Of a DNA stretch of 64,000 nt, positions 36,499-54,541 are shown in pieces. The stretch is taken from NCBI RefSeq assembly GCF_021183825.1, contig NZ_CP089211.1:4260501-4324500 (forward strand). The letters run 5' to 3'. Within the stretch, counting starts at the first letter, position 1. Each line of letters starts with the position of its first letter. The stretch is from Sinomicrobium kalidii (GTDB lineage: Bacteria > Bacteroidota > Bacteroidia > Flavobacteriales > Flavobacteriaceae). The notes under the pieces are model-generated. The model saw only the letters and a program-made list of their open reading frames with translations. It was not told the origin of the DNA and did no database searches. The position numbers were made by a program, and so were the translations under genes.

Positions 36499-37053
36499 AT
36501 GGCGTCAAAAGACCGGATCATTCTGGAAAAACTCAAGCGGGGAAACTCTTCCGGCTATAAGGAATTGTTCGACCTTTATTATATGCCGTTGAGTGTTTAC
36601 GCTTTGAAGTACTGCGATTCCTTTACCATGGCCGAAGATATTGTCCAGGACTTGTTCGTAAAGATCTGGGATGAAAAACTGTACATGAAATTTGAGGCTC
36701 CCATAGGCCCCTACCTTTTCAGGGCCGTAAAGAACAACACTTTGCTGGCCGTAAAAAAAAATTCCCGGTATCATTTTGAAGAGATCGAAGACCAGGTCAA
36801 TACACTGATGGAAGAAGAAAAAACGGACCGGGACACCATAGAACAGGAAAAGGAGAAACTGTACAGGGAGATCGAAGCCCTCCCTGAAAAAAGCAGGGAG
36901 GTCTTTAAGGCCATTGTACTGCAAAACATGAAATACAAGGAAGTGGCCTCGCAACTGGGGATCTCCGTAAATACTGTTAAAACCCACTATTCCCGGGCTC
37001 TGAAACAACTTCGCCAATCGCTCGACATCATCATTTGGTTATTATTGCTTTAA
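36499..37053 (+). CDS. ECF-type RNA polymerase sigma factor
   Basis: A 184-residue sigma factor of the Bacteroidota FecI-like group. Region 2 has YALKYCDSFTMAEDIVQDLFVKIW (in part) near residue 35-55, with the -10 binding helix; region 4 has VASQLGISVNTVKTHYSRAL (about 150) for -35 recognition. The short linker lacks regions 1 and 3. It is followed after 66 bases by a fecR gene and then a susC gene with an STN domain, the standard trans-envelope signalling cascade in which the transporter reports substrate through FecR to release sigma. Confidence 0.95.
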   Translation: MASKDRIILEKLKRGNSSGYKELFDLYYMPLSVYALKYCDSFTMAEDIVQDLFVKIWDEKLYMKFEAPIGPYLFRAVKNNTLLAVKKNSRYHFEEIEDQVNTLMEEEKTDRDTIEQEKEKLYREIEALPEKSREVFKAIVLQNMKYKEVASQLGISVNTVKTHYSRALKQLRQSLDIIIWLLLL

Positions 37054-37119
37054 AAAAAAGTTAATTTCTTGTCACCCGTTTCCGGTCTTTTGGAATATAT
37101 ATAATACAACAGACCGATA

Positions 37120-38304
37120 ATGGATAAGATCAGTGACCATATTTTAGGACTTATTACCGCGTATACTTCCGGGGAGATCACGCAAAAGGAATTCCGGGTC
37201 TTGCAGGAATGGATACGGGAAAGCCCGGAGAACAGGCTGGCGTTCATAGCCCATCTGCATGCCTATAAAAAATGGAGAAGAACAGGGTTTATGCAAACCC
37301 TGGACAAAGGAAAAGCCTGGGAACTCATTACCTCAAAATTAAAAACCCCGTTACAGCCGGTTTCAAAATCGAAATATATTAGATTCACTACCCGGTATTT
37401 TAAATATGCCGCGGCAATTCTGGTATTGCTGGCCCTGGGCTTTTTCTACCAACAAGGTTATTTCTCTCCCCGGTCTGATGATGTACTCGTCCCCCGGGAG
37501 GAAGCCGTAACCCTGCAATTAGACAATGGTAAAATAGAGATTATAGATACGGAAACCTCCCAAAATGTTACCGATGCCCGGGGCAATCTCGTAGGAAAAC
37601 AAAATAAAAACCAGATCACTTATACCCCAAATGCTATTACGGGTTCAATGGCTTATAACACTCTTACGGTGCCCTACGGTAAACGTTTTGAAGTGATCTT
37701 ATCTGACGGTACCTCCGTACGTTTGAATGCGGGTACTTCGCTGAAGTATCCCACACACTTTCAGGAAGGAGAGCATCGGCAGGTCTTCCTTAACGGAGAG
37801 GCCTTTTTCGAAGTGGCCAAAGACGCGGAACGTCCTTTTATTGTGAATGCCGACGATTTAAATGTACGGGTACTGGGCACCCGGTTCAATGTAGCCATCT
37901 ACCCTGAGGATGAAGCTACCGATGTAGTACTGGTAGAAGGTGCCGTAGGGCTGTATACCGAAGATGAAAATTTTAACCCTGATAAAAACACGGTTCTGAG
38001 CCCCGGGCATATAGCCGTCTTTAACCGGAAGGAAAAAACGATTTCTACCAAGGAAGTGGTTACCAGGGTCTATACGTCCTGGACAAAAGGAGAACTCGTA
38101 TTCCGTAACATGCCTCTTGAAAGTATCCTTAAAAAACTGGAAAGGCACTATAACATTACCATTATAAACAACAACACTGAGCTGGCCCAAAAGGAATTTA
38201 ACGCCAGTTTTGGCCGGGAACCCATAGAAAAAGTGCTGGAATACTTTAAAATATCCTATGGTATTACATATAAAATAGAAGACAATAAAGTAATTATAGA
38301 ATGA
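37120..38304 (+). CDS. FecR-family anti-sigma factor
   Basis: A 394-residue single-pass membrane anti-sigma protein. The cytoplasmic N-terminus (about 1-90) binds sigma. One transmembrane helix lies at about 97-115 (YAAAILVLLALGFFY). The periplasmic FecR domain has VPYGKRFEVILSDGTSV and VFLNGEAFFEVAKD (about 225). A C-terminal DUF4974-like domain (VFRNMPLESILKKLERHYN to the end) would contact the STN domain of the SusC transporter. It lies between sigma and susC on one strand. A 291-base leader with a CGGAAAATG/CATTTTCCG hairpin (38523-38546) separates it from susC. Confidence 0.95.
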   Translation: MDKISDHILGLITAYTSGEITQKEFRVLQEWIRESPENRLAFIAHLHAYKKWRRTGFMQTLDKGKAWELITSKLKTPLQPVSKSKYIRFTTRYFKYAAAILVLLALGFFYQQGYFSPRSDDVLVPREEAVTLQLDNGKIEIIDTETSQNVTDARGNLVGKQNKNQITYTPNAITGSMAYNTLTVPYGKRFEVILSDGTSVRLNAGTSLKYPTHFQEGEHRQVFLNGEAFFEVAKDAERPFIVNADDLNVRVLGTRFNVAIYPEDEATDVVLVEGAVGLYTEDENFNPDKNTVLSPGHIAVFNRKEKTISTKEVVTRVYTSWTKGELVFRNMPLESILKKLERHYNITIINNNTELAQKEFNASFGREPIEKVLEYFKISYGITYKIEDNKVIIE

Positions 38305-38595
38305 AACAGTGACCATTCCACATGCTTTGTACCATTAAGTTGAAAAAGAAAAAACGAATCGCAATGTTAGTAAAGGATTTCACAGAGGACACAGGAGGTC
38401 TATTCAAAAATCGCAATAAACAATGCCTATGAAATAATATCGATACAAAAGAACTAACCGGAATACACGAACATCTTCTTAAAAAATCCTGGCTGACCGG
38501 TGGAGCGGACTAAAAGGAAAGCCGGAAAATGGTGGAGCATTTTCCGACTTGATGATGTGATTAATAAAATTAACCACAAACCAATACTTAAAAGT
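38305..38595 (+). other. Leader region before susC
   Basis: 291 bases without a gene. A hairpin with perfect 9-bp arms (CGGAAAATG and CATTTTCCG, about 38523-38546) lies 50 bases before the susC start and could control its expression. The open frame reaching back to 38500 is ignored because the signal peptide begins at 38596. Confidence 0.4.
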
Positions 38596-41500
38596 ATGAA
38601 AAAACTTCTTAATAATACAAGAAGCCCTAATCTGTTTTTTAAAATTGATCTGAAGATGAAACTCAGTGCCATATGCATATTGGCAACACTGTTCTCCCTG
38701 CAGGCTCATAATTCTTATTCACAGAAAAAGATTTCCCTGAATTTGAATAATGTCCCTATGGAGCGTCTTCTGGATGAAATTGAAAACCGTACCGACTTTA
38801 ATTTTGTCTATAAAACCGAAGATGTAGACCTGAAACGTATGGTCTCCGTTAACGTAAATCAGGAAAAGATAATTAGTGTGCTGGATCGTGTTTTTTCCGG
38901 GACCCGAACCGTCTATACGGTGGTGGGACAACAGATATTGTTGACCGAAAGAAAATCGGAACAAGCAGTTGTACTTCGGGCCCAGAAACAGGTGCGGGGA
39001 ACCGTCACAGATCAAAAAGGTACACCCATCCCGGGAGTTAATGTTTTTGTCAATATAGGAGTTGAGGATATTGGTGATGGTGTCGCTACTGATTTTGAGG
39101 GAAAATATACAATTGCAGTCACGCCCGGAGAGACACTCACGTTTTCGCATGTGAGTTTTGTTTCCCGAAGCGTACTTGTCGAAGATCAGACCACAATAGA
39201 TGTTACTTTGGAAGAATTATACAATGAATTGGAAGGCGTTGTGATCACCGGTTACCAAAAAATTGAAAGTGGAGATAATGCCGGCGCTTTTGCCAAGGCC
39301 GATATGTCCACCGTGCAAAACAGGAGCACCAGTATGAATGTATTGGACAGGATTGATGGCCTGGTTCCCGGAGTTGTGATCAACCAGTCACCTTCAGATG
39401 AAGAAGGTGTAGACAACTCGGTACTTGTCAGGGGGTTGACCACCATTAATGCCAACAGGCAACCCCTTTTTGTAGTGGATGGTGTGCCTATTAATAATAT
39501 ATCAAGGATTAATCCCCGGGATATAGAAGATATTACCGTGCTTAAAGATGCCTCTGCAAGTGCCGTTTACGGGTCCAGGGCGGCAAACGGAGTAATAGTG
39601 ATAACAACCAAAAAAGGCAAGGTCAATTCGAAAATTCAGTTTGACTATGATACCTTTATCAATTTTCAGGGTAAACCGGACCTGGATTATATTCCCACTT
39701 TGACGAGCAGGCAATTTATAGACTTCGCGAGAGCTATTTTCGATCCTGTTTTAAATCCCTATGGGCAAGTATCCAATACTGCGAGTTTAACAGACCCGGG
39801 CGTACCTCCTCATGAGCAGATCTTATACGACCTGGATAACGGACTTATAGACCAGGCAACCGCAGAAAGAAGGTTGGATGCTTTAGCTTCGTTTAACAAT
39901 ACCAATCAGATAAAGGACCTGTGGTACAGGGATGCCATGCTCAACAACCATACTATTTCGGCCAGCGGAGGTACCGAAAAACACACCTTTTATAGCTCGC
40001 TGACATATACCCGTACAGAAGACAATATGCCGGGAAATAACGATAATACTTTCAAGATCAACATAAACCAGGATTTTAAATTCAATAGCAAACTGAAAGT
40101 AGGGCTGGTCACCGATCTTACCCAAAGAATAACCTCCGGAAAAAGGGCATTGACCATAGACAACAGGACCTTACCCTACCTGAGATTCAGGGATGAACAA
40201 GAAAACAACCTCTCCATGCCTTACATGCAAACATTCTCCAGGGACGAATTGCCGGGTTTTGAATCTGCAAGTGGTATTGACCTGGATTACAATCCGCTGG
40301 ACGAATATGACAGGGGATATGACAAAGGCAGGGATTTTCAGGCAAGGATAACGGCCAGCTTGAATTGGGAGTTGCTGGAAGGATTAGAGTTTCAGGGGCT
40401 TTACGGATATGTCCGGGGAAACGGCAAGGTTGTGGAGTATAATAACCCCGATAATTTTGTAGTACGCCTGGAAAATGCCACAATGACACAACCCGCAACA
40501 TCTCCGGAAGGCAGCCCCATTCACCATATTCCGCTGGACGGGGGACACTATTACGAAGAAAACGGCCTGGAGCGCAATTGGGTAGTCAGGAATCAACTGA
40601 ATTTTAACAGGGAATGGGACCATAAACACAGGCTAAACATTCTGGTAGGACAGGAGGCTCAGGAGCAGTTAACAACGGTAACAAGCAGTTTTACAAGGGC
40701 TTTTGACGATCAAAGTTTGACGTTTCCATCCCTGGATCTGAACGAACTTTCAACAACGGGGATAGGTAATCCGGTAATTGCGCAGGACCCTTTCGGAAGA
40801 AGTTATATCAGTATTGGTGGAGAAAGGGCACCGTTCAGGATCGTGGAAGACCGATACAGGTTTTCTTCCTATTATGGTACCCTGAATTATACCTTAAACC
40901 ATAAATATGTAATTAACGGAAGCGGGCGTATAGACCGTTCCAATCTCTTTGGAAGAGACCAGTCAGCGCAAAATAAGCCTGTATGGAGTGCAGGTTTTAA
41001 ATGGTTACTGGGAAATGAAGATTTTCTCAATCATGCAGCCTGGCTGGATAATTTGGGACTACGGGCAACCTACGGTCTTACAGGAAATGCTCCGAGCCCC
41101 GGAACAGCTTCTTCCTATGATATATTGTCCTCATCTTCCAGCTCATTGTTTAACAGGGGATATGAAATTACCACTCCGGGCAATCCCGATCTCACCTGGG
41201 AAAGTACCAGAACATTAAATCTGGGGGTAGACTTCGGTTTTTTTAATGAACACTTAAGCGGTTCCATAGATTATTACATCAAAAAAACGGAAAACCTTAT
41301 TGGTTTTGTTCCGACAAACAGTTTTACAGGGTATTCCGGCATTACCGGAAACTTTGGTGATATTGAGAACGAGGGACTGGAAATAATGCTCAAGACCTTA
41401 AATATAAACACCGGAAATTTCTCCTGGTACACGCAATTTATCCTGGGGTATAACCAAAATCAAATAACACGCCTCAATCAACAAGTGCCCATAGTGGATG

Positions 41501-42228
41501 GTAGCGAATTAATTTACACAAGGTATCTTGAAGGGTATTCCGCATTTAGTTTGTTTGCGTATGACTTTGTGGGGCTGGATGAGATGGGGGACCCGCAAAT
41601 CCGTCTCGCAGATGGTAGCACTACCAAAATGCCTTTTGGCACTACCGTTGAAGACATGAAATATATGGGGACATACCAGCCCAAGTGGTCGGGAGGGTTC
41701 AGTAATAGCTTTTCATATGGAAATTTCACCCTTAATGCCAATATCATATATAATCTTGGACACGTGATGCGGCTGGACAGCCCGAATCCCTTTATTGCAT
41801 TTTCAGGCGGACGACTTATTGCTGATGCTTCTAATAATTTTACATCCGGAAACCTGCATCCCGATATTTTAAATAGATGGCGTCAGGCAGGAGACGAAGC
41901 TGTTACAAATGTGCCTTCCTATGTGGCCGAGAGAGCAGTTAGCCAGGGCAGAAGAAATATAGATTACTATACCTATGGCGATATCAATGTAGCTTCGGCC
42001 TCCTATGTTAAATTACGCGATATCAGTTTAAATTACAGGTTTCCCGAATCCCTTTTGGACCAGGTTGGTTTTGACAGTTTTTCTTTACGTGTACAACTTA
42101 GCAACCTGATGCTGTGGAAAAAGAACAAGGCCGGTATAGATCCGGAATTTCATAACCTCCGGATGGGCCGACGCAGTGTTCCCATTAACCAGAAGTCCAT
42201 CACATTCGGGTTACACCTATCAATTTAA
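38596..42228 (+). CDS. SusC/RagA-type TonB-dependent transporter with STN domain
   Basis: A 1210-residue outer-membrane transporter. I start at the ATG at 38596, in front of the signal-containing KMKLSAICILATLFSLQAH. Next is an STN domain (ISLNLNNVPMERLLDEIENR, about 60-120), which links to FecR, then a carboxypeptidase-like beta domain (VRGTVTDQKGTPIPGVNV). The plug contains the SusC TonB-box region VVITGYQKI, LDRIDGLVPGVVI and VLKDASASAVYGSRAANGV, and a long barrel ends the protein. It pairs with the susD gene 13 bases downstream. The following genes are thiol-redox and peptidase genes, with no glycan enzyme, so a peptide substrate is more likely than a glycan. Confidence 0.96.
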   Translation: MKKLLNNTRSPNLFFKIDLKMKLSAICILATLFSLQAHNSYSQKKISLNLNNVPMERLLDEIENRTDFNFVYKTEDVDLKRMVSVNVNQEKIISVLDRVFSGTRTVYTVVGQQILLTERKSEQAVVLRAQKQVRGTVTDQKGTPIPGVNVFVNIGVEDIGDGVATDFEGKYTIAVTPGETLTFSHVSFVSRSVLVEDQTTIDVTLEELYNELEGVVITGYQKIESGDNAGAFAKADMSTVQNRSTSMNVLDRIDGLVPGVVINQSPSDEEGVDNSVLVRGLTTINANRQPLFVVDGVPINNISRINPRDIEDITVLKDASASAVYGSRAANGVIVITTKKGKVNSKIQFDYDTFINFQGKPDLDYIPTLTSRQFIDFARAIFDPVLNPYGQVSNTASLTDPGVPPHEQILYDLDNGLIDQATAERRLDALASFNNTNQIKDLWYRDAMLNNHTISASGGTEKHTFYSSLTYTRTEDNMPGNNDNTFKININQDFKFNSKLKVGLVTDLTQRITSGKRALTIDNRTLPYLRFRDEQENNLSMPYMQTFSRDELPGFESASGIDLDYNPLDEYDRGYDKGRDFQARITASLNWELLEGLEFQGLYGYVRGNGKVVEYNNPDNFVVRLENATMTQPATSPEGSPIHHIPLDGGHYYEENGLERNWVVRNQLNFNREWDHKHRLNILVGQEAQEQLTTVTSSFTRAFDDQSLTFPSLDLNELSTTGIGNPVIAQDPFGRSYISIGGERAPFRIVEDRYRFSSYYGTLNYTLNHKYVINGSGRIDRSNLFGRDQSAQNKPVWSAGFKWLLGNEDFLNHAAWLDNLGLRATYGLTGNAPSPGTASSYDILSSSSSSLFNRGYEITTPGNPDLTWESTRTLNLGVDFGFFNEHLSGSIDYYIKKTENLIGFVPTNSFTGYSGITGNFGDIENEGLEIMLKTLNINTGNFSWYTQFILGYNQNQITRLNQQVPIVDGSELIYTRYLEGYSAFSLFAYDFVGLDEMGDPQIRLADGSTTKMPFGTTVEDMKYMGTYQPKWSGGFSNSFSYGNFTLNANIIYNLGHVMRLDSPNPFIAFSGGRLIADASNNFTSGNLHPDILNRWRQAGDEAVTNVPSYVAERAVSQGRRNIDYYTYGDINVASASYVKLRDISLNYRFPESLLDQVGFDSFSLRVQLSNLMLWKKNKAGIDPEFHNLRMGRRSVPINQKSITFGLHLSI

Positions 42229-42241: not shown

Positions 42242-43678
42242 ATGAAAAAAATCAAACAAAATATATACAGGAAAGGATTCATTTTTTTAATGGCCTTACA
42301 CGCAATATCCTGCAGTGAAGATTACCTGGACATTACCCCCAGGGGCGATCTCATCGCTTCGAGGACCAGCGATTACGAGTTGTTATTCTACAATAATGAC
42401 ATGATTAATATCGGCTCTGACCTGACGGTGAAAATGTCTCCCGAAGTTTGTGCGATAGACCAGTTTTTTTCCGGAGCAGAGTTGACAAGGCAAAGAGCTT
42501 TTAGATGGGAAGCAGATATTTATCAACCTGTGGATGTACCGAATGAAGTCAGCGATTTTATGGGAAAAATATATGTTTTCAACAAGATCATTAACGAAGT
42601 CATGCAATCTACCGGGGAAAATGAGAATGAAAAGGCTTCCTTAAGGGCGGAAGCCCTGGCAAGCAGAGCCTGGTGCTATTTTAACCTTATTAATTTTTAC
42701 GGCAGGCCTTATAATCCTCAAACGGCCGCATCAGATCCCGGATTCCCGATTGTAACCGAAGCCGATGTGCGTCAGGATGATTTTGTTCGCTCCAGTGTAC
42801 AGGAAGTCTACGATTTTATTATTAACGATCTGGAAACCGCAATACCTGATCTGCCTTATAGTGAAGATAGGCTTCGTATGGGTAGAGGCGCTGCCGAAGC
42901 ACTTTTGGCCAAAGTCCATGTATTTATGGGGAATTATCCGGAGGCCCTGACTTTGTTCGATAATGCCTTTGATTCTTTTGATGCATCTCCCCTTGATATC
43001 CGGATTTACGATTTAAATGTAACGACATTACCCGGAGGAGTTAACGAACCGGGGTCGTTCGGGCCGTCAACTCCGCCGGTTGCTGATAATACCGAGATCG
43101 TCTACCACAAGTATCTCGTCAATTTGAACGCCATACTTAATTCGGATGTGCTGCTCTCGCCTGAGACTGCTGCACTTTATGGCGCCAATGATATAAGATT
43201 CAACGAAAATTTTTCCGATTCGGAATTTTTCGGACCTCCGTTTGCAGTACCTGGTGTCTACAGGCGCTTGGCGCCACCTCAGGTTATCATTGGCATTGAT
43301 ATCAAAGATATTTATCTGCTCCGCACGGAATGCAAAGCACGTACGGGCGACCTGGAAGGAGCGATTTCCGATCTGGAAGATTACAGAGAACTGAGAATGC
43401 CCGAAACGGATGCAGACGTACCAGATATGGGACAAACCGACCTGATAAGGTATGTTATAGACGAGAGAAGACGGGAATACGCCGTTCAGGGTACAGAATG
43501 GTTTACCGTAAGAAGGATTTTCAACGACCCTGTTTTTAGTTCGGATACTTATATCCATACACTTTACAATAACGACGGCACAGTGAGGGAAACCTATTCC
43601 CTCACGGAAGATAGGCTGCAATTGAGATTTACGGATAACATATTACAGGAAAACCCGGGATTGACCAATAATCCCTAA
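42242..43678 (+). CDS. SusD/RagB-family lipoprotein
   Basis: A 478-residue surface lipoprotein partnering the SusC upstream. The lipobox is AISC (Cys near 23), then SEDYLDITPRGDL as in most SusD proteins. TPR-like helices include ALASRAWCYFNLINFYGRPY (about 140). The C-terminal SusD region has VIDERRREYAVQGTEWFTVRR (two parts) near 420 and ends in LQENPGLTNNP. It is slightly shorter than glycan-type SusD proteins, closer to the RagB-like group. The small size suits, but does not prove, peptide binding. Confidence 0.95.
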   Translation: MKKIKQNIYRKGFIFLMALHAISCSEDYLDITPRGDLIASRTSDYELLFYNNDMINIGSDLTVKMSPEVCAIDQFFSGAELTRQRAFRWEADIYQPVDVPNEVSDFMGKIYVFNKIINEVMQSTGENENEKASLRAEALASRAWCYFNLINFYGRPYNPQTAASDPGFPIVTEADVRQDDFVRSSVQEVYDFIINDLETAIPDLPYSEDRLRMGRGAAEALLAKVHVFMGNYPEALTLFDNAFDSFDASPLDIRIYDLNVTTLPGGVNEPGSFGPSTPPVADNTEIVYHKYLVNLNAILNSDVLLSPETAALYGANDIRFNENFSDSEFFGPPFAVPGVYRRLAPPQVIIGIDIKDIYLLRTECKARTGDLEGAISDLEDYRELRMPETDADVPDMGQTDLIRYVIDERRREYAVQGTEWFTVRRIFNDPVFSSDTYIHTLYNNDGTVRETYSLTEDRLQLRFTDNILQENPGLTNNP

Positions 43679-43754: not shown

Positions 43755-45020
43755 ATGAATTTAAAAAAAGTAATTATCGCAATATCCTGCCTGTTCGCAG
43801 GTACATTTCTAACTGCCCAGGAAGTAACCGGAATACAGGCGGACATACGTGCAATGACCAAGGAGACGGATCCTGAAAAAGCCATTGTCATAAAGGACCG
43901 GATTATTAAAGAGTATGATCTGGACACATTAAAAGACTCCGAAACCATGGATATGTTAAACGGAAATGTTGCCCTGGCTTTTGTGATGAAAAAGAATTAT
44001 AAGGAGTTTGAAAAATACATCGGGAAAATTAAAAACAGGTTCAATCAGACATCTATGCTCAATATGGCTGCCAATAAGCTTTTAGCCGAAGATATCGATG
44101 CTAATTACGCCAATAAAATAGCAGTAAAAACCCTGGAAGAATATTATTCGTTCAAAGATGATCCCAATGCAAGACCCGACAGTTATACCCTGGAAAACTG
44201 GGAAAGGTTCATTACCTTTTCAAAATATCCTTATTACGACACTTATGCAAAATCACTGTTTGCCCTGAAAAGGTATAAGGAAGCCCTGCAATACCAGCGA
44301 ATGACATTTCAGGGCGAACCGGAAGAAGGCCTTCCCGTTTCGGTTGAGCGATATGCCAAACTCCTCGAATTGAACGGGGAGAAAGAAAGTGCAAAACAGC
44401 TGCTGTTAAAAATTGCAGGAAAAGGCAAACTGAACAAAGGCATGATTGCCCAGCTGGAGTCGTTCTATGTCTCCGAAAGAGGCAATAATGCGGGGTTTGA
44501 TGCCTATATGGACAGTCTGCAGAATAATAAGGCTGAACTCATAAAAGATCTCAGGACAAAAATGATTAATGAACCTGCCCCTCCTTTTACCTTAAAAGAT
44601 TTAAGCGGAAAACAGGTGAGCCTGTCCGATTATAAAGGAAAAATAGTGATCCTGGATTTGTGGGCCACCTGGTGTGTGCCTTGTATAAAGTCATTTCCGG
44701 CCATGCAGAAACAGGTTAAAAAACATCCGGATGTAGCATTCCTGTTCATCGCTGTGCAGGAAACAGGAGATAATATCCCGGAAAAGGTGAAAAACTTTAT
44801 GGACAAGAAGAATTATTCCTTTCATGTATTACTGGACGAACCTGTCGCAAAAGGTTCCGAAAAATATAAGATTGTCTCTGCATACAAACCAAACGGAATA
44901 CCGGCAAAATATTTTATCGACAAAAAAGGGAAACTCCGGTTCAGGTCAAAAGGTTTTGATACCGATCAGGAACTGATGAATGAAATAGATGCCATGATTA
45001 CCATAATGAAGACTTTATAG
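43755..45020 (+). CDS. TlpA-like thioredoxin-family protein with helical N-domain
   Basis: A 421-residue periplasmic or membrane-facing thiol protein. Signal peptide ends FLTAQ. A long helical domain (30-260) with TPR-like character precedes a thioredoxin fold of the TlpA/ResA type at 272-420: PAPPFTLKDLSGKQVSLSDY, then WATWCVPCIKSFP with Cys307 and Cys310 (active CxxC), and a cis-Pro near GIPAKYFID. It should reduce disulfides of a substrate or partner, being kept reduced by DsbD encoded downstream. It lies 76 bases after susD. Domain order helical-plus-TlpA is frequent next to SusCD pairs of unknown substrate. Confidence 0.93.
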   Translation: MNLKKVIIAISCLFAGTFLTAQEVTGIQADIRAMTKETDPEKAIVIKDRIIKEYDLDTLKDSETMDMLNGNVALAFVMKKNYKEFEKYIGKIKNRFNQTSMLNMAANKLLAEDIDANYANKIAVKTLEEYYSFKDDPNARPDSYTLENWERFITFSKYPYYDTYAKSLFALKRYKEALQYQRMTFQGEPEEGLPVSVERYAKLLELNGEKESAKQLLLKIAGKGKLNKGMIAQLESFYVSERGNNAGFDAYMDSLQNNKAELIKDLRTKMINEPAPPFTLKDLSGKQVSLSDYKGKIVILDLWATWCVPCIKSFPAMQKQVKKHPDVAFLFIAVQETGDNIPEKVKNFMDKKNYSFHVLLDEPVAKGSEKYKIVSAYKPNGIPAKYFIDKKGKLRFRSKGFDTDQELMNEIDAMITIMKTL

Positions 45021-45125
45021 GAGAACTGACATAAAAGTTACCTTTTAAACTTTATTCTCAATTTGGTTAATCATTTTAAATTATAAGAAACCGTAGTAGT
45101 CAAAATAAATTATAGGAGTATGAAT

Positions 45126-45575
45126 ATGCGAAAAATGATGATTTTGTGTTTTTTGAGCGTTAGTTTAGGGATAAATGCTCAAATTCTCAACCCGGTAAAA
45201 TGGTCAACAAACGTTACCCGGATTTCGGATTCGGAATTCGAGTTGATTGCCACTGCCGAAATGGAGCCCGGCTGGCATTTATATTCACAATCCGTACCGG
45301 AAGGAGGCCCCGTTGCGACACAATTCTCTTACGAAGGAAATGGTCGTTACCTGAAAAAAGGAAATACTTCAGAAGGAGAGGGGCACACTATCCACGACCC
45401 GGTATTTGACATGGAGATCAAGTATTTTGAGAACAAGGCATACTTTAAACAGCGTATAAAAAGCAAGACCGATGAGGCTTTTAAAATTAATGCCTCGGTA
45501 AGGTTTATGCTTTGTGATGATACCCAGTGCTTGCCTCCCAAAGAAGTCGACCTGATATTCGAGATCAATAAATAA
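45126..45575 (+). CDS. Free-standing DsbD alpha (N-terminal) domain protein
   Basis: A 149-residue exported protein with signal peptide [16 protein letters not shown] and one immunoglobulin-like DsbD-alpha domain with the Cys pair CDDTQC. It closely resembles residues 20-145 of the DsbD protein encoded next ([45 protein letters not shown]). I choose Met at 45126 because AGGAG at 45114-45118 is 7 bases away, against 1 base for the ATG at 45120. It would shuttle electrons between the membrane part of DsbD and periplasmic TlpA proteins, as a second, detached alpha arm. The gap to dsbD is only 4 bases. Confidence 0.85.
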
Positions 45576-45579: not shown

Positions 45580-47553
45580 ATGAAAAAACTTATTTTTTTC
45601 TTTCTCCTTTGTGCATTTGCAGCAGGAAGGGCTCAGGTTTTTGAACCTGCGACATGGACAACTTCGGTTGAAAGGGTTTCCGGTACGGAATACAATCTGA
45701 TATCCACAGCCCGGATAGATTCCGGGTGGCATTTGTATTCGCAGAATGTTCCGGCAGATGGTCCTGTACCCACAACCTTTACTTATGACGATGCCAACGG
45801 TGCTTTCCGGTTTGTTGGCAATACCGTGGAAGGAGAGGGTATTACTGTTGACGATCCCGTTTTTCAGATGAAAATTAAATATTTTGAAGCCAAAGCAGTG
45901 TTTACGCAGCGGGTCGAAGTATCGGGAACAGGAACTACCGTGCATGCTTTCGTAGAATATATGGTCTGTGATGATTCAAAATGCCTGCCACCTGTTGAAG
46001 AGGAACTGGTCTTTGACCTTTCTGGCGCCGGAGAAACCGTTGCCGGAACGGAAAAAAAGGCCACTACAACGGATGTTCAGCCCCTACCATCAGATAAGGA
46101 AGATTCGAACAGAGGCCTGGGCACCATTTTTTTTATAGCATTTCTGTCAGGTTTTGCAGCCTTGTTAACACCTTGTGTATTCCCGATGATCCCCATGACG
46201 GTAAGTTTTTTTACCAAGCAAAGTAAAACCAGGGCCAGAGGTATTCGAAATGCCATTGTTTACGGGATATGTATTATTGTTATTTATGTATTGTTGGGAA
46301 CAGCCGTTACCGCTATATTCGGAGCCAGTGCCCTAAACGCACTGGCAACCAATGTATGGTTCAATATCATTTTCTTTTTACTGCTGGTCATTTTTGCCAT
46401 GTCTTTTTTTGGAGCCTTTGAGATTGTATTGCCCGGTTCCTGGGCCAATAAGGTAGATTCGCAAAGCCTTCGGGGCGGGTTTATAGGGATATTTTTCATG
46501 GCCCTGGCCCTGGCTATTGTCTCTTTCTCCTGTACCGGCCCGATAGTGGGGACCCTGCTTGTGGAGGCAGCTTCAAAAGGCGGTATAGCCCCCATTGTGG
46601 GCATGCTGGGTTTTTCCCTGGCCATTGCTTTACCTTTTGCCCTGTTTGCAGCTTTTCCCGGATGGTTAAATTCCCTGCCGAGATCAGGCGGATGGTTAAA
46701 TACCGTAAAAGTGGTACTGGGTTTTCTGGAATTGGCCCTGGCCTTTAAATTTCTGTCGCAGGCAGACCTGGTACTGCAAACCCATTTTTTGGAGCGCGAA
46801 GTGTTTCTGGCCATATGGATCGCTATTTTCGGAACGCTGGTTCTATATCTCTTTGGAAAAATACAATTGCCCCATGATTCGCCCGTAACCCGGCTCTCTG
46901 TCGGGAGACTTTGTACAGGAGTGTTCACACTGGCATTCACCATATACCTGATTCCCGGACTTTGGGGGGCACCGCTGAACCTGATAAGTGCTTTTCCCCC
47001 GCCGCAGCATTATAGCGAAGCGCCCTATGGTGTTGGTCATTCAAAAGTTGAGAGCGATATAACCGCATCAACGGATCATGAAGGACTGCCGGAAGGTGCC
47101 CATTTAATGGCCCCCCATGAAATTCTGGCTTTTGACGATTATGATAGAGGGCTCGCCTATGCCAGAAAAGTTGGAAAACCCGTGATGATCGATTTTACGG
47201 GCTGGGCCTGTGTGAATTGCAGAAAAATGGAGCAAAATGTCTGGCCTGATCCGGGGATTCTGGATATACTCCGGAATGAAGTGGTTTTAATTTCACTTTA
47301 TGTAGATGACAAGAGAAAACTTGAAGATGATGAAGTCGTTGAATCAAAGCTAAGACCGGGCAAGCAATTAAAATATGTCGGACAAAAATGGAGTGAGTTA
47401 CAGACCATAAAATATAAGGCCAACTCACAACCTTTTTATGTGCTGATGGACCACAATGAAGAAAACCTTAATGATCCGGTAGGTTATACCCCTGATGTTC
47501 AGGAATACTACGAGTGGCTGAGACAGGGACTGGAAAACTTTAAAAAACAATAG
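45580..47553 (+). CDS. dsbD: Thiol:disulfide interchange protein DsbD
   Basis: A 657-residue transmembrane reductant carrier. Signal peptide ends GRAQ. The alpha domain (21-145) has Cys130/Cys135 (CDDSKC). The beta domain, with about eight membrane helices (180-470), has Cys199 (LLTPCVFP) and Cys318 (FSCTGP). The C-terminal gamma thioredoxin domain (about 515-657) has CVNC at 544-547. All three redox pairs are present, so it can move electrons from cytoplasmic thioredoxin to periplasmic thiol proteins. Two TlpA-like genes flank it and thioredoxin reductase ends the locus, completing the path. Length and order match full-size DsbD. Confidence 0.95.
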
Positions 47554-47664: not shown

Positions 47665-49056
47665 ATGAAACAATTATTCAGAATAACATTGGTCCTGTTG
47701 TGTTGTTGGGGCTGCGAGAACGAACAAAAAACGGAAGGTATGATACTGTCCGGATCGATATCCGGAAACGATGTCCCGGGAGTGATAAAAATACGGGCAA
47801 ATGATTATGAGAAAGACGTTGCATTGGGTGCTCACGGGAACTTTATCGACACCTTAAAAATAGAAAGGTCGGGGTATTATTCCCTGGTGATCGGGAAAAA
47901 TAATACTATCGTGTATTTGAAGAAAGACGGTGATCTGTACCTTAAGGCTGATACCGACCGGGATAAGTTCCATAAAAACCTGGTCTATACCGGTACGTTT
48001 GAAACAGCAAATAACTACCTGGCACGAAAACGTGAATTACAGGATAAATGGAACTATTCCCAGCCGGATAAATTATTTGTCCTGGAGGAAAAAGCGTTCA
48101 AAAAAGTAATAGATGTTCAAAAGGAAACCCTGGATTCTCTGGCAGAAGCATCTGCACTACCCGAAGATTTTGCCGCACTGGAAAAAAAGGGAAATTATTA
48201 TGAATACGCTTTTCATATTCTGAGGTATCCTTCTTTTCACCATTATTTTGCTAAAAAGGATACTTTGGATCTCGATGAAGATTTCGATACCGGGATCAGG
48301 GATATAGACTTTCGGAATGAGAAAGATTTTATAAATATCCCGGCATATAAAAAACTGGTGTTCTATAAATTCGGAGAGGAGATGAATGAGAAGTACAGTA
48401 AGAATAAGGCACAGGGAATGGAAAGCAACGGGCACCCCGAATTTATGGAGACCATCAGGACATACCCCAGGGGGGATATAAAGGACGCGCTACTGTTGCG
48501 CAATACCTACTATTTGTCACCGGTCTCGGATAACCTGGAAGAAACCTATCGGTATTTTATGGCCGAGTTACAGGGGGAAAAGGCCAGGGAAAAGGTCAGG
48601 GAAAAATATGAAAAGGTAAGGAAGCTTGCAAAAGGGGAACCTTCTCCCGGGTTTAACTATGAAAATTTCAAAGGAGGAACCACTTCACTTGAAGATTTAA
48701 GGGGGAAGTATGTCTATATCGATATATGGGCTACCTGGTGCGGGCCGTGTAAGGCGGAAATTCCGTATTTAAAAGCTGCGGAAAAGGAATACCACGATAA
48801 AAACATAGTGTTTGTAAGCATTTCCATTGATAAGGAGGAAGACCGTGAAAAATGGAAATCCATGATAGAAGAGGAACAACTCGGGGGAATACAATTGATT
48901 ACCGATAAGGATTGGAAATCCCGGTTTATTATGGATTATGGCATAGAAGGAATTCCCAGATTCGTACTGATCGATCCCCGTGGAAATATAGTTTCGGCCG
49001 ATGCTCCCCGTCCTTCATCACCCGAAATGAAGGCATTGTTAGATACGATTCTATAG
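47665..49056 (+). CDS. TlpA-like lipoprotein with DUF4369-type N-domain
   Basis: A 463-residue lipoprotein with lipobox ending at Cys17 (CCWGC). The first 100 residues are beta-rich (ILSGSISGNDVPGVIKI), reminiscent of DUF4369. A helical middle with lysine-rich segments follows, and then a thioredoxin fold from about 320: GEPSPGFNYENFKGGTTSLE, WATWCGPCKAEIPY with Cys359 and Cys362, and GIPRFVLIDPRG with the cis-Pro. CGPC is the classic thioredoxin motif, more reducing than CVPC of the first TlpA in this locus. It probably receives electrons from DsbD. Its lipid anchor may hold it at the outer or inner membrane near the SusCD pair. Confidence 0.92.
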   Translation: MKQLFRITLVLLCCWGCENEQKTEGMILSGSISGNDVPGVIKIRANDYEKDVALGAHGNFIDTLKIERSGYYSLVIGKNNTIVYLKKDGDLYLKADTDRDKFHKNLVYTGTFETANNYLARKRELQDKWNYSQPDKLFVLEEKAFKKVIDVQKETLDSLAEASALPEDFAALEKKGNYYEYAFHILRYPSFHHYFAKKDTLDLDEDFDTGIRDIDFRNEKDFINIPAYKKLVFYKFGEEMNEKYSKNKAQGMESNGHPEFMETIRTYPRGDIKDALLLRNTYYLSPVSDNLEETYRYFMAELQGEKAREKVREKYEKVRKLAKGEPSPGFNYENFKGGTTSLEDLRGKYVYIDIWATWCGPCKAEIPYLKAAEKEYHDKNIVFVSISIDKEEDREKWKSMIEEEQLGGIQLITDKDWKSRFIMDYGIEGIPRFVLIDPRGNIVSADAPRPSSPEMKALLDTIL

Positions 49057-49203
49057 CATTGAGATTTCGGTTTCGCCCAAAATATTTGGGACATTCCGGG
49101 AGTATCGGTATGTAAATGCGCATTGTGAAATGCCTTTTCTTTTTTACATCGAAATAATATCAGACGTCGGGGAACTTAAGGAAAATAAAAAAATACAATT
49201 CAT

Positions 49204-51990
49204 ATGAAACTATTAAAAACTATAAGTTTACTATGGCTGACCGTAGTCAGCCTGAACGCCCAGACGAAAAAGGAAGTCCCTTTCGATGCGTCTATCCGTC
49301 ATGGTGTTCTGCCCAACGGGCTGACCTATTACATCAAACACAACGAAGAACCCAAAGAAAGGGCCTCCTTCTATTTTGCCCAGAACGTAGGATCTGTCCT
49401 GGAAAAGGAATCGCAACGGGGACTGGCCCATTTTCTCGAACATATGGCCTTTAACGGCCTGGAACACTTTCCGGAAAAAGGCATGCTGGAATACCTTGAG
49501 AAGAACGGAATAAAGTTCGGTTCGGAGATCAATGCCTATACTTCCTTCGATCAGACGGTTTACAATATCAGCAAGGTTCCGGTCACCAATAAAAAACTGC
49601 TCGATTCCACCCTGCTGGTACTGCACGACTGGTCGGGCTCCCTTTCCCTGACGGAGAAGGAGATCGATGCCGAAAGAGGGGTGATCAATGAAGAGTGGCG
49701 AACGCGGAACACCCCCGGTTTCCGGGTCTCGGAAAAGGTATGGACCGAAGGGGTAATGAAGGGGGCTGTGTATGCCGAACGCATGCCCATCGGGCTGATG
49801 TCCGTAGTCAACAATTTTAAATACGACGAACTCCGGGACTATTACAAACGGTGGTACCGTCCGGACCAGCAGGCGGTTATTGTGGTCGGGGATATCGATG
49901 TGGATGTTATGGAGGCGAAGATCAAAAAGGTCTTTTCATCCATTCCCCTGAAAAAAGGGCTGCCTGAACGAAAGGACTTTGATATCACCCTGGACGGGGG
50001 AATTACCTTTATCGAGTCCCTGGATAAGGAAGTGGGCACTACCGGTGTTGAATTTATAATAAGGAACAAGGCCAAAGATTTAAAAGGATATCCATACCTG
50101 GATGATAAGTTGATAAAGGATGTGGTTTCGTATATCCTGAATAACCGGTATAAGGAACAGACCGTTGAGAAAACCTGCCCTGCCTTATCGGTGAACTATG
50201 CCTATTCAAACTTTGTAAGGCCGCTTGATATTCTGGGCCTGTACATTCAGCCCAAAACAGATAAAGAACTGGAGAGTTTCGAATTTGCTTTGACCGAGCT
50301 TCTGCGTTTTGTACGGTACGGAGCCACGGAAAGCGAACTCGAAAGGGCAAAACTGTCTATCAAAAACAGCAAATTGTCCTATTTAAAGAATAAAGACAAG
50401 ATCGGCAGTGACGCCTATGCCCAGCAGATTTACCAGCATTTCTTTACCCAAACCCCTTTGCCGGATGTAAACTGGGATGTGAATTACACGGTCGACCGCC
50501 TGGAGACCATCACCAACGCGGATATCCTGGAATATATGGCCGGTGTTTACAAGGAGGAAGATATCGTCATGGCCATCAAGGGATCTTCCGAAAAAGCCCA
50601 TCCGAACAAAGACAAATTCGTAAAAGTGTTTAAAGCCGTCAATGCCCGTGACCTGGCCCCGTACACAGACGACACAGACAATACCCCTTTAATAGCAACA
50701 GCTCTTAAGGAAGAGCCTGTAATAAAGACTTCGGAGATAAGCGGGCTCGATGCCCGGAAATACAAGCTGGCCAATGGGGCACGGGTCGTTATTTTCCCGA
50801 CTCCGTATGATAAGGACAAGATCTATATGAAAGCCTATAGCCCCGGGGGAAGCTCCCTGCTCGATAAAGACCTTCTGCCTTCTGCGGATGTAGCCACCTA
50901 TGTGGCCTCTGAATCAGGACTTGGGGCATTCGATAAGATCGCACTGGACAAAAAACTGGCCGGTACGGACACCTCCCTGGAACTTAACATCAGTGAATTG
51001 TCAGAAACCCTGTCCGGGAACAGTACGAAATCCGATATCGAGGTGTTGTTCCAAAAGATATACCTGAGTTTCGAAGCCCCCAGGTTTGAAGAAGAAGCCT
51101 ATGATCTGGCCATGGAACGCTTTGCCAAGAACCTTGAACGCAAACAGAAATATAAAAAGAGCATCTTACAGGATTCCGTATCCCTGGCCCTGACGGCCCA
51201 TCATGAAAGGACCCTGGTGTTCAACCGTGAATTCCTGGACCGGATTGCACTGGAGAACATAAAAACGGCCTATACCGACCGGTTCCGGGATATCGATGAC
51301 TTCACCTTTGTATTTGTGGGGGACATCGATGAAAAGCAACTGTTAAAGCTGGCCCAAAAATATATCGGTAACATAAAACCGGAAAACAGGACCGAACGGT
51401 ATGTGGATCATGATTATAAACCCGCAAAAGGAAAGACTGTAGTAAAAGTGGTTGAAGCCATGGAAACCCCGCAGGCCACGGTGAGCATTGTTTTTAAGGG
51501 AGATATGGCCTACAATTTTAAAAACAGGCTAAAGGTTAATATGGCAGGGCAGTTGTTGCAGAAGCGTTGCCACGATGTGATCCGGGAGGAAGAAGGCGGA
51601 AGTTATGGCGTAGGGGCCCGGGCGTCGTTAAACGATATCCCGAAGGCGGAATACTCCATGTCAGTAGGTTTCGATTGTAACCCCGGTATGGTGGATAAGC
51701 TGGTACAGGTGGTCTATGACCAGGCAGGCCAACTTTCGGAAACCGTGGATGTCGATGATTTCAGGGAGGTCAGGGAATCGATGATCAAAGCCCGTAAGGA
51801 AGCGGTGGATAATAATGAGTACTGGATGAATGTTTTAACCTCCAATGTTTTTTACGGGAGGCAGATCCATACCCTTGAGGAGTATATTGAGGCTGTAAAC
51901 GGTATAAGCCCGGATGATATCAAGGAGACCGCCCGTACCCTGTTGGACAATGCCGATATCGTTGAAGGGGTGCTGGTACCCGGGACCTGA
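49204..51990 (+). CDS. M16-family (insulinase/pitrilysin-like) zinc peptidase
   Basis: A 928-residue exported metallopeptidase with signal peptide ending SLNAQ. The inverted zinc motif HxxEH is seen as HFLEH (His76, Glu79, His80), with the third ligand probably Glu157 in AERGVINEEW. Two M16 halves follow each other (active half to about 460, inactive half from about 500 to 925), as in the single-chain pitrilysin group. These enzymes digest short peptides inside a closed chamber, so they suit imported peptides rather than intact proteins. It lies in the SusCD/TlpA/DsbD locus, which supports a peptide-utilisation role. Confidence 0.95.
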   Translation: MKLLKTISLLWLTVVSLNAQTKKEVPFDASIRHGVLPNGLTYYIKHNEEPKERASFYFAQNVGSVLEKESQRGLAHFLEHMAFNGLEHFPEKGMLEYLEKNGIKFGSEINAYTSFDQTVYNISKVPVTNKKLLDSTLLVLHDWSGSLSLTEKEIDAERGVINEEWRTRNTPGFRVSEKVWTEGVMKGAVYAERMPIGLMSVVNNFKYDELRDYYKRWYRPDQQAVIVVGDIDVDVMEAKIKKVFSSIPLKKGLPERKDFDITLDGGITFIESLDKEVGTTGVEFIIRNKAKDLKGYPYLDDKLIKDVVSYILNNRYKEQTVEKTCPALSVNYAYSNFVRPLDILGLYIQPKTDKELESFEFALTELLRFVRYGATESELERAKLSIKNSKLSYLKNKDKIGSDAYAQQIYQHFFTQTPLPDVNWDVNYTVDRLETITNADILEYMAGVYKEEDIVMAIKGSSEKAHPNKDKFVKVFKAVNARDLAPYTDDTDNTPLIATALKEEPVIKTSEISGLDARKYKLANGARVVIFPTPYDKDKIYMKAYSPGGSSLLDKDLLPSADVATYVASESGLGAFDKIALDKKLAGTDTSLELNISELSETLSGNSTKSDIEVLFQKIYLSFEAPRFEEEAYDLAMERFAKNLERKQKYKKSILQDSVSLALTAHHERTLVFNREFLDRIALENIKTAYTDRFRDIDDFTFVFVGDIDEKQLLKLAQKYIGNIKPENRTERYVDHDYKPAKGKTVVKVVEAMETPQATVSIVFKGDMAYNFKNRLKVNMAGQLLQKRCHDVIREEEGGSYGVGARASLNDIPKAEYSMSVGFDCNPGMVDKLVQVVYDQAGQLSETVDVDDFREVRESMIKARKEAVDNNEYWMNVLTSNVFYGRQIHTLEEYIEAVNGISPDDIKETARTLLDNADIVEGVLVPGT

Positions 51991-52090
51991 TATTTATTGT
52001 AAAACGCATATTATCGTTGGAAAAAATTCAACTGCGATTCGTATTGCTGGGGAAAAGTAAAATGTAAAAACAAACTTAATAAAGGAGAAA

Positions 52091-53551
52091 TTGGATAACA
52101 GACCAGTGGATTTAGAGCAACATTTTAAGACTTTTCGAAATCATATTATAGGAAATCAGTGTAGTTTTCAATCGCCGTACGGGGAGCAGAAAGTATTGTA
52201 TGCCGACTGGATCGCCACCGGAAGGTTGTACGGTCCGATCGAGGATAAAATAAAAGATAAGCTGGGTCCGTATCTGGCCAACACCCATTCCTTTTCCAGT
52301 GAGACAGGGAAGATCACCACTGACCTGTACCGTGAAGCCCGCAACGTCATAAAGAAGCATGTTAATGCCGGTGAAGATGATGTGCTGGTTACCACAGGTT
52401 CCGGGATGACGGGGGCACTGGCCTGCCTGCAACGGATCATGGGGCTTCGGAAATACCGGTACCGGAATCCAGGGGATAAACCTGTGGTGTTTATCACGCA
52501 TATGGAACACCACTCCAATCATGTGCCATGGCTGGAAACCCATGCGGATGTAGAGGTTGTTCCCCCGGATAAACATCTGAAACCGGATTTATCACACCTG
52601 GAGAAATTATTGGAGAAATATAAGGACCGTAAACTGAAAATAGGTTCGTTTACGGCCTGTTCCAATGTCACCGGGGAGATCGTGGATTACAAAAAATGGA
52701 CTCAAACAATGCATACCTATGGTGGGTTGTGTTTTCTGGATTTTGCGGCCTCAGCGCCTTATGTGCCGATCAATATGCACCCGGCAAATGAAGCCGGACG
52801 ACTAGATGCCATTTTCTTTTCTCCCCACAAGTTCCTGGGTGGACCCGGAGCCTGTGGTGTGCTGATTTTCAATAAAAAGCTCTACAGAAATGAGGTTCCC
52901 GATCGTTCCGGTGGAGGTAATGTAAAATGGACCGACCCTTGGGGAGGACACTCGTATTTTGAAGATATCGAAACACGGGAAGACGGTGGAACCCCGGGAA
53001 TAATACAGACCATAAGGACAGCATTGGCCATAAAGCTCAAGGAAAAGATGGATCCTGACCTGATGGCCTTACAGGAAGAAAAGCTGCTTCAACAGTTTTA
53101 CAGGGAACTGGAAGATGTACCTCAAATCAAATATATGGACGGTTGTACTGCAAAACGTATCGGATGCGTGTCCTTTAATATTGAAGGAATCCACTATAAT
53201 CTGGTGGTGCGCCTGCTCAATGACCGTTTCGGCATCCAGGTCCGGGGCGGGTGGTCCTGTGCCAGTACCTATGCTCATTACCTGTTCGGATTGGACAAGG
53301 CTGTATCTTCCTCTATCACAGGTCAAATCGATCAGGGGAATTTGAGTGATAAACCCGGTTGGGTCCGCATTTCTATTCATCCCACTATGAATACGGACGA
53401 CATCCGGTATATCACCGGGGCCATCAAAGAGATCATCCGGCATAAGGATGAATGGCAAAAGGATTACAGGTACAACCCTTCGAATAATGAATTCGAATAT
53501 ATCCGCGATACCCCTGCGCATTCGAAAGAGGAAGAATTTTTTGAACTGTAA
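52091..53551 (+). CDS. Class-V aminotransferase-fold PLP enzyme, desulfurase-like
   Basis: A 486-residue PLP enzyme. Cofactor contacts: TTGSGMTGAL (about 101-110), HHSN at 140-143 and the Schiff-base Lys247 in FFSPHKFLGG. Cys390 in RGGWSCAS lies where cysteine desulfurases carry their catalytic cysteine (RxGxxC), so cysteine or selenocysteine lyase activity is plausible; isopenicillin N epimerase-like proteins are an alternative. The start is TTG at 52091, three bases after AGGAG, or GTG at 52106; no ATG is close. There is no signal peptide, so it is cytoplasmic. It is encoded after the M16 peptidase and 36 bases before thioredoxin reductase. Confidence 0.88.
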   Translation: MDNRPVDLEQHFKTFRNHIIGNQCSFQSPYGEQKVLYADWIATGRLYGPIEDKIKDKLGPYLANTHSFSSETGKITTDLYREARNVIKKHVNAGEDDVLVTTGSGMTGALACLQRIMGLRKYRYRNPGDKPVVFITHMEHHSNHVPWLETHADVEVVPPDKHLKPDLSHLEKLLEKYKDRKLKIGSFTACSNVTGEIVDYKKWTQTMHTYGGLCFLDFAASAPYVPINMHPANEAGRLDAIFFSPHKFLGGPGACGVLIFNKKLYRNEVPDRSGGGNVKWTDPWGGHSYFEDIETREDGGTPGIIQTIRTALAIKLKEKMDPDLMALQEEKLLQQFYRELEDVPQIKYMDGCTAKRIGCVSFNIEGIHYNLVVRLLNDRFGIQVRGGWSCASTYAHYLFGLDKAVSSSITGQIDQGNLSDKPGWVRISIHPTMNTDDIRYITGAIKEIIRHKDEWQKDYRYNPSNNEFEYIRDTPAHSKEEEFFEL

Positions 53552-53587
53552 TTTTTTGATCGGACAGATTTAAACACTGAACATAAT

Positions 53588-54541
53588 ATGAAAGAAGATA
53601 TAAAGTGCCTTATCATAGGGGCGGGGCCTGCGGGCTATACGGCAGCCATTTATGCTTCACGGGCAGGAATGAACCCTGTTTTATACCAGGGTACCCAACC
53701 GGGAGGGCAATTAACAACAACCAATGACGTAGAAAATTTTCCTGGTTACCCGGAGGGTATAATAGGCCGTGAAATGATGGTCCAGTTACAGCAACAGGCT
53801 GAACGTTTCGGAGCAGACATCAGGGACGGCTGGGCGACCCAAGTGGATTTTACTGGCCCCGTGCATAAGGTATGGATCAACGATACGATAGAACTCCATT
53901 GTGAAACCGTAATTATAGCCACGGGAGCCTCGGCCAGGTACCTGGGGTTACCCTCGGAGCAAAAGTACCTCCGGTCAGGAGGTGGTGTTTCGGCCTGTGC
54001 GGTATGTGACGGTTTTTTCTACCGCAACCAGGAGGTGGTCATTGTCGGGGCGGGAGATTCAGCCTGTGAAGAAGCCCATTACCTGTCAAAATTGTGTAAG
54101 AAAGTCACCATGCTGGTCAGGCGTGATGAATTCCGGGCCTCCAACATTATGGAAGCTAGGGTCCGCAAAACAAAAAACATTGAGATCCTGTTCAATACGG
54201 AAACGGAAGAGATACTGGGAGACGGGCAACTGGTGACAGGAGTACGTGTAAAAAACAATATCTCCGGAAGAACCACAGACATCCCTGCCACAGGGTTTTT
54301 CGTAGCGATAGGGCACCAACCGAACACAGATATCTTTAAAGGCCATATCCGCCTGGATGAAACCGGATATATTATCAACGTCCCGGGCACGGCACAGACC
54401 AGTGCAGAAGGTGTTTTTGTGTGTGGAGATGCGGCAGACCACGTGTACCGGCAGGCCATAACCGCTGCTGGGACCGGGTGTATGGCTGCGTTGGAAGCGG
54501 AACGCTACCTGGCATCGGTTGAAGCTGCTGCGATGGAGTAG
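53588..54541 (+). CDS. trxB: Thioredoxin reductase
   Basis: A 317-residue flavoprotein. FAD motif GAGPAGYTAAIYASRAG near the start, redox pair CAVC at 137-140, NADPH motif GAGDSACEEAHYL after it, and the C-terminal FAD contact VCGDAADHVYRQAITAAGTG. Length is the usual for the low-molecular-weight bacterial enzyme. It reduces cytoplasmic thioredoxin with NADPH; thioredoxin then feeds DsbD. As last gene of the redox-linked SusCD locus it would provide the electrons for the periplasmic TlpA proteins. It may be a dedicated second copy; whether the genome has another trxB cannot be seen here. Confidence 0.95.
   Translation: MKEDIKCLIIGAGPAGYTAAIYASRAGMNPVLYQGTQPGGQLTTTNDVENFPGYPEGIIGREMMVQLQQQAERFGADIRDGWATQVDFTGPVHKVWINDTIELHCETVIIATGASARYLGLPSEQKYLRSGGGVSACAVCDGFFYRNQEVVIVGAGDSACEEAHYLSKLCKKVTMLVRRDEFRASNIMEARVRKTKNIEILFNTETEEILGDGQLVTGVRVKNNISGRTTDIPATGFFVAIGHQPNTDIFKGHIRLDETGYIINVPGTAQTSAEGVFVCGDAADHVYRQAITAAGTGCMAALEAERYLASVEAAAME

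Follow-up and report, generated by a model that had tools for sequence, protein, structure and literature searches.

The closest described systems

Protease-associated import is described for Fus (FusA/FusC) in Pectobacterium and for YddB/PqqL in E. coli, and the available part of one paper surveys such systems across the Proteobacteria (PMC6793856). In each, a TonB-dependent outer-membrane transporter is linked to a periplasmic M16 peptidase. Other proteases replace FusC in some clusters (PMC6793856, available part). That same part has neither 'Bacteroidetes' nor 'thioredoxin' nor 'disulfide', and the SusC family of Bacteroides is mentioned as distant in a supplementary figure legend only. 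We examined a stretch of 64,000 nucleotides from Sinomicrobium kalidii (contig NZ_CP089211.1, forward strand, hereafter the window), which is C1:4260501-4324500 of a single-contig 5.36 Mb genome. It contains an eleven-gene locus with an importer of the SusC/SusD type (SusCD), thiol reductases and an M16 peptidase of the PqqL/FusC type. We argue, with a probability of about 55%, that this locus is an inducible protease-associated importer built on SusCD, which breaks down peptides or small proteins with disulfides by reducing and cutting them and probably salvages their cysteine.

The likeness to Fus and YddB/PqqL lies in the link between a TonB-dependent transporter and a PqqL/FusC-like M16 peptidase, and M16 is replaced by other peptidases here as FusC is there. 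The differences are that the transporter is SusC/SusD rather than FusA or YddB, that it is under sigma/FecR control, and that thiol reductases, DsbD, a pyridoxal phosphate (PLP) enzyme and thioredoxin reductase (TrxB) are added. Periplasmic thiol-reducing pathways built on DsbD and TlpA proteins are known, such as ScsB and CcdA/ResA. The DsbD of the window has their alpha, membrane and gamma cysteine pairs and lies beside TlpA-fold reductases, but its operon also encodes an outer-membrane importer and a peptidase. Cytochrome c maturation genes are absent from the eleven. SusCD loci are usually taken for sugar-uptake loci. RagAB of Porphyromonas gingivalis (6sli, 6sln) is a SusCD-type peptide importer by its title and is among the structure matches. 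Among the open-access papers that our searches listed, none describes SusCD together with DsbD/TlpA and a peptidase. The available part of PMC10434189 reports TlpA and SusD genes separately, and that of PMC11658791, a review of TonB-dependent uptake, adds nothing on such loci.

Gene content of the locus

The original prediction for this stretch, made from the sequence alone, listed eleven genes from a sigma factor to TrxB on one strand and no glycan enzyme among them. Coordinates and profile matches bear out the genes, their order, their families and the plus strand of all eleven, and Pfam and NCBIfam family profiles match a glycan enzyme in 0/11 proteins. The locus opens with an extracytoplasmic function (ECF) sigma factor of the Bacteroidota type (36499..37053; TIGR02985, 137.6 bits, cut-off 126.4) and a FecR-type anti-sigma regulator (37120..38304; PF04773, PF16344). 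The SusC-type TonB-dependent transporter follows at 38500..42228 (TIGR04056, 608.7 bits, cut-off 368.25); its real start is probably downstream of the GTG as listed. It has an STN signalling domain (PF07660), in keeping with signals sent to FecR and sigma. The SusD-type lid lipoprotein adjoins it at 42242..43678 after a gap of 13 bp. With SusC above the TIGR04056 cut-off and SusD adjoining, the pair classes as a SusCD (RagAB) importer.

The thiol-reducing genes come next. The first TlpA-type reductase (43755..45020; WCVPC; PF00578, PF08534) has an N-terminal part without any Pfam match. A free DsbD alpha (DsbD_N) domain protein of 151 residues with a CDDTQC motif (45120..45575; PF11412) precedes DsbD itself (45580..47553; PF11412, PF02683, PF13899). 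DsbD has alpha, membrane and C-terminal thioredoxin domains with three cysteine pairs, and scores 150.9 bits against PRK00293, under the NCBIfam DsbD cut-off of 330. The second TlpA-type reductase (47665..49056; WCGPC; PF08534, PF13905) is a probable lipoprotein. The redox cysteines are intact throughout: C307/C310 and C359/C362 in the TlpA proteins, C132/C137 in the free alpha protein, C130/C135, C199, C318 and C544/C547 in DsbD (all six expected), and C137/C140 (CAVC) in TrxB.

The M16 peptidase (49204..51990; HFLEH motif), the class-V PLP enzyme (52091..53551; PF00266) and TrxB (53588..54541; TIGR01292, 366.9 bits, cut-off 343.45) complete the locus. Read by eye, lipoprotein signals are present in SusD and the second TlpA, and export signals in the first TlpA, the two DsbD proteins and M16, so M16 is predicted to be periplasmic; no signal was seen in the PLP enzyme or TrxB. 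Gaps among the eleven genes are 4-195 bp. A terminator-like hairpin (54519..54550, plus strand) overlaps the TrxB stop and may mark the end of the operon. Of the plus-strand sites of this kind listed from sigma to TrxB, it is the only one that does not fall inside a gene, and the signal is weak since there are 27 such sites on both strands vs 20.8 (sd 4.9) in shuffles.

The PLP enzyme is desulfurase-like in its active site. Its lysine and catalytic cysteine align with those of solved SufS-type desulfurases, and both are kept in 35/35 aligned PLP proteins (open reading frames above 430 residues, with the duplicates L119/L070 and L123/L109 counted once; L and G numbers are our handles for loci and genomes). 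The original prediction read the peptidase and the PLP enzyme as breakdown of a disulfide-containing peptide or cysteine compound. This gains from the conserved lysine and cysteine and from the exchange of M16 for unrelated peptidases described below. It is weakened in that the enzyme scores 149.1 bits (TIGR01979) vs a SufS cut-off of 475.1 and reaches no NCBIfam cysteine desulfurase cut-off. Around the cysteine the PLP proteins form two clades (VRGGWSCAS and TRGGCSCAG), and DsbD adjacency without a contiguous SusCD-TlpA set is seen in both.

Relatives of the importer and the peptidase

By sequence and by fold, M16 is closest to a P. gingivalis zinc protease, PqqL and FusC. The M16 peptidase of a Fus-like system is present here, and its FusA/YddB-family transporter is not, the transporter here being SusC/RagA. 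One can imagine that SusCD instead imports a cysteine-rich metalloprotein, an iron-sulfur protein or a haemoprotein in the manner of Fus and ferredoxin, and that thiol reduction and M16 cutting release the metal or cluster, which would be the nutrient. Outside Bacteroidota the nearest relatives of M16 are PqqL and FusC, and FusC takes part in iron piracy from ferredoxin (PMC6071955, available part). A SufS-like enzyme could also tie to iron-sulfur metabolism. However, no metal, siderophore or haem gene was recognised among the eleven, and opening an iron-sulfur protein has no obvious need of extra disulfide reductases. The words 'thioredoxin' and 'disulfide' are absent from the main texts of PMC6793856 and PMC6071955, as far as these are available. 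We consider metal piracy unlikely.

The closest solved SusC sequences are 8ypu and 8ypt, the latter titled as a BfUbb-ButCD complex, and SusD is closest by fold to ButCD. BfUbb is a ubiquitin-like protein of B. fragilis that acts in antagonism within the species (PMC5705921, available part). This raises the idea of a system directed at antimicrobial peptides or bacteriocins with disulfide bonds, to disarm or salvage them. Relatives of M16 cut small folded peptides, which would suit such a role. Against it, no immunity or export gene was recognised among the eleven, and ABC-2 transporters occur at only some related loci (L042, L070). Handling of antimicrobials is in our view very improbable.

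A survey anchored on SusD

The combination is not peculiar to the window. In a family sample of 110 genomes, the window SusD has matches at E 1e-22 or better in at least 23 places in 12 genomes, the window included; up to 14 candidates were scored per genome, so this list may be incomplete. We took the 22 other matches (a sister locus of the same genome, locus B, is in and the window is out) and followed the same-strand downstream chain with gaps of at most 450 bp. The chains contain TlpA in 13/22, M16 in 5/22 and DsbD in 4/22, and TlpA or a peptidase in 16/22. A DsbD lies within 12 kb of six of these 22 SusD genes, once on the opposite strand. This has a binomial p of ~1e-8 at an assumed rate of 0.7%, and of 6e-6 at triple that rate.

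The best single argument that these loci share the cutting of a polypeptide as their task is the exchange of peptidases. Eleven of the 22 loci have one each: five M16, three S9, two trypsin-like with PDZ and one Met-zincin (Pfam was run on 60 chain proteins out of 65, all but the five with a sigma or FecR annotation). At L119 an M16 lies past an opposite-strand open reading frame; counting it gives a sixth M16 and 12/22 loci with a peptidase. Unrelated peptidases are thus swapped in one kind of operon, as would suit loci that break down peptides or proteins. Genome G019 has three SusCD-TlpA-DsbD loci with a trypsin-like protein (577 residues plus PDZ in two, 304 residues in one) and no M16 within the stretches read. 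At L203 an S9/S33-like hydrolase sits between TlpA and DsbD. A relative of the same genus (G002, L199) has the order SusCD-TlpA-TlpA-M16.

SusCD loci drawn as controls look different. TlpA, DsbD, M16, PLP enzyme and TrxB occur in 0/20 SusC chains of the same genome, taken as about every third of 56 listed SusC places (56 of 150 candidates scored). They also occur in 0/10 stretches of 5-10 kb from eight other genomes, these being 10 of 20 rows that were themselves about every seventh row of a list of high-scoring SusC. TlpA at 13/22 vs 0/20 gives p = 2.3e-5, a comparison limited by the control SusC proteins being high-scoring and unlike the window SusC. The original prediction had suggested checking whether these families co-occur, and they do: the association of SusCD, TlpA, DsbD and a peptidase recurs in other genera and is found at 0/30 control SusCD loci.

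The controls also bear on a conventional explanation, namely that this is a common polysaccharide or glycoprotein utilisation locus with its glycan enzymes encoded elsewhere. SusCD with sigma and FecR is a usual plan of a polysaccharide utilisation locus, and the sigma factor, FecR and SusC STN domain are all present; a glycan-degrading enzyme was not recognised among the eleven proteins. Own-genome control chains (87 proteins, Pfam) do carry GH2, GH43, GH92 and sulfatases, and show no peptidase among 25 of 98 families listed. In the chains of the SusD matches, none of the 25 Pfam families listed (of 49) is a glycan enzyme. A glycan locus is therefore an explanation to which we give hardly any credence.

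Loci found through M16 have DUF4843, PKD-like, amidohydrolase and aspartyl-protease-like neighbours; having been picked via M16, they are no test of its presence. Some SusCD-M16 loci have an ATP-binding cassette (ABC) ATPase and ABC-2-type membrane proteins that replace the redox genes or stand beside them (L041-L044, L092, L070; the Pfam check covered the L042 and L070 proteins only). SusD homologues also occur in Pedobacter and Chitinophaga. A phylum-wide SusD search (395 genomes, up to four candidates scored each) matched one further genome. In this genome, from another family of the same class, at G385:C8 (L249:220-6233), SusC-SusD-TlpA (CQPC) has a SusD 43% identical to that of the window.

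A survey anchored on DsbD and TrxB

DsbD was searched at E 1e-60 in the same sample. There is one copy in 99 genomes, two in nine, four in one and five in the S. kalidii genome. This gave 126 places, 121 of them outside the own genome, and 80 were read (the 40 nearest and every second from the 42nd on), with same-strand neighbours scored up to 11 kb away. The apparent housekeeping place is beside TilS (39/80; the TilS query has TilS_C and PP-loop domains). A PLP gene is beside DsbD in 18/80 and M16 in 7/80. SusC and SusD are beside it in only 6/80, and in five of those six (L119, L125, L128, L129, L132) TlpA is there too. At L155, TlpA, TlpA, DsbD and M16 adjoin a divergent SusCD pair. In the genomes common to the PLP and DsbD searches, 8/22 PLP genes are at most 5 kb from a DsbD, two of the eight in the own genome. 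DsbD adjoining a PLP gene, or separated from it by one gene, without a contiguous SusCD-TlpA, was seen at 14 loci (L121, L122, L123, L124, L126, L138, L140, L141, L150, L154, L168, L170, L183 and L196).

For trxB, matches at E 1e-60 are found in 108/110 genomes, with a single copy in 106, two in G011 and three in the own genome. The three surplus copies are those of the window, of locus B and of G011, the last adjoining a PLP gene at L119, and all three sit in SusCD-TlpA-M16-DsbD-PLP loci. The third trxB of the own genome is 65% identical and located apart. L119 has the order FecR-SusC-SusD-TlpA-M16-DsbD-ABC-PLP-TrxB, and the same locus is in a Wocania arenilitoris record (L070).

We built a quick DsbD tree of 98 rows (open reading frames above 550 residues, the same duplicates counted once). 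Its 15 SusCD-linked rows need at least ten state changes, gains and losses pooled, a rough count since 33/95 inner branches are open. Six of the 15 came via the M16 scan (L039, L049, L070, L089, L097, L110). L028 was entered by hand, its SusC and SusD being presumed from likeness to a second sister locus, C, because the contig stretch ends before them. The locus C DsbD groups with the own genome's TilS-linked DsbD, and that of locus B with the TilS-linked DsbD of another genome (both starred in the tree). The window DsbD groups with the copy of a Tenacibaculum locus (support 91), inside a starred group of 19 rows, the Wocania copy among them. By this tree, DsbD has clearly joined SusCD loci from more than one lineage, and the three own-genome loci draw on different ones.

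Points against the proposed importer and a possible upkeep role

Several observations weigh against a disulfide-reducing, protease-associated importer. TlpA is absent downstream in 9/22 SusD relatives, and 6/22 have neither TlpA nor a peptidase among the Pfam families listed. The drawing rule for the own-genome control hit locus C, which as a case locus was swapped for another row; with C, TlpA is at 1/21. The controls came from the best-scoring TIGR04056 matches, mostly of one genome, and the window SusC is not among these. The window SusD has just 23% identity to the ButCD SusD in structural alignment, by sequence 3kez scores slightly above the ButCD one, and the matches include just 11 solved SusC-like sequences. 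The thiol-reducing chain was called complete in the original prediction. It is not, as the eleven genes lack one for thioredoxin (TrxA), so the chain depends on the cell's own thioredoxin. Finally, DsbD-PLP and M16-DsbD-PLP occur without SusCD, and no DsbD, PLP or TrxB gene is found within the 20 kb read at G002 L199.

These last facts also qualify the linkage of redox genes to SusCD on which the original prediction leaned. The linkage recurs, and G002 keeps TlpA and M16. The DsbD-PLP-TrxB part is separable, as at L141 where SusCD is lacking, and G002 does without it, which makes the recycling arm optional.

One can also argue that the redox genes serve the machinery, keeping SusC, the peptidase or other envelope proteins correctly reduced, and travel with the operon. 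That DsbD and DsbD-PLP units exist without SusCD, and that G002 lacks the arm, would be expected in such a scenario. However, the window M16 has just three cysteines and SusD four, lipobox included. Redox genes have also repeatedly joined peptidase-bearing SusCD loci and none of the 30 control ones, so we find upkeep quite unlikely.

Proposed mechanism

An importer that reduces and cuts its substrate might work as follows. A peptide or small protein with disulfides would be bound by SusD and SusC and drawn into the periplasm. The SusC STN domain would pass the binding signal on to FecR and sigma. In the periplasm the disulfides would be opened by the two TlpA-type reductases, possibly together with the free DsbD alpha protein. 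DsbD would recharge the TlpA proteins with cytoplasmic electrons, and would itself be recharged by TrxB and the cell's own thioredoxin, so that electrons would flow outward. The PqqL/FusC-like M16 would cut the opened chain, reduction coming before or during cutting. The products would then have to enter the cytoplasm; an inner-membrane peptide transporter is not encoded by any of the eleven. The PLP enzyme, probably cytoplasmic, would act on the salvaged cysteine or a derivative, and cysteine sulfur is a likely gain. Nothing favours one substrate over another among disulfide-rich peptides, small proteins, cystine peptides and oxidised glutathione.

We tentatively suggest a broader idea, one that may well turn out to be wrong. 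A class of Bacteroidota SusCD may import whole small disulfide-bonded proteins, reduce them in the periplasm with a dedicated chain and salvage the cysteine, a kind of reductive protein piracy. It adds that any recruited peptidase could do the dismantling and that the class might have been assembled independently several times; it is not described in the papers searched. A recurrent SusCD type with thiol reductases and a peptidase would provide a rule for spotting protein- or peptide-eating SusCD systems from sequence. It would tie periplasmic electron export to nutrient uptake, and carry protease-associated import, described in Proteobacteria, over to Bacteroidota. It would also offer a possible use for the multiple DsbD and trxB copies in a few of these genomes.

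Sister loci and neighbouring genes

Three of the five DsbD genes in the own genome are inside SusCD loci: the window (A), B and C. Both B and C are SusCD-TlpA-DsbD-M16 loci, B with PLP-TrxB. Locus B (C1 ~3368.7-3385.3 kb) runs FecR, SusC, SusD, TlpA, TlpA, M16, DsbD, PLP, TrxB. Locus C (~3350-3368 kb) runs SusC, SusD, a 502-residue protein, a DsbD_N protein, TlpA, FecR, TlpA, TlpA, DsbD, M16. There are also two smaller variants, one at 4206-4212 kb (SusC, SusD, a thioredoxin-fold protein, DsbD alpha) and one at 4665-4676 kb (sigma, DsbD alpha, FecR, SusC, SusD, M16).

The M16 of locus B differs from that of the window (27% over 214 residues). The M16 of locus C (C1:3365205-3367988; L014:15205-17991) is nearly the same gene, with one synonymous base different in 2787. 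These two copies are ~0.94 Mb apart and their flanks are unlike on each side. This looks like a recent gene conversion restricted to the coding sequence. Over 159 bases, the sequence that follows TrxB in A matches the one that follows M16 in C at 93%, and L028, from a relative of the same genus, has C-type genes followed by PLP and TrxB. Because of this, locus C probably lost PLP-TrxB.

Directly downstream of the operon, at 55386-62662 and converging on it, is a second SusD-SusC-FecR set on the minus strand with a sigma gene on the plus strand. Upstream, at window positions 8428-17891, are efflux genes (OEP, AcrB-type) and a molybdopterin-binding oxidoreductase subunit.

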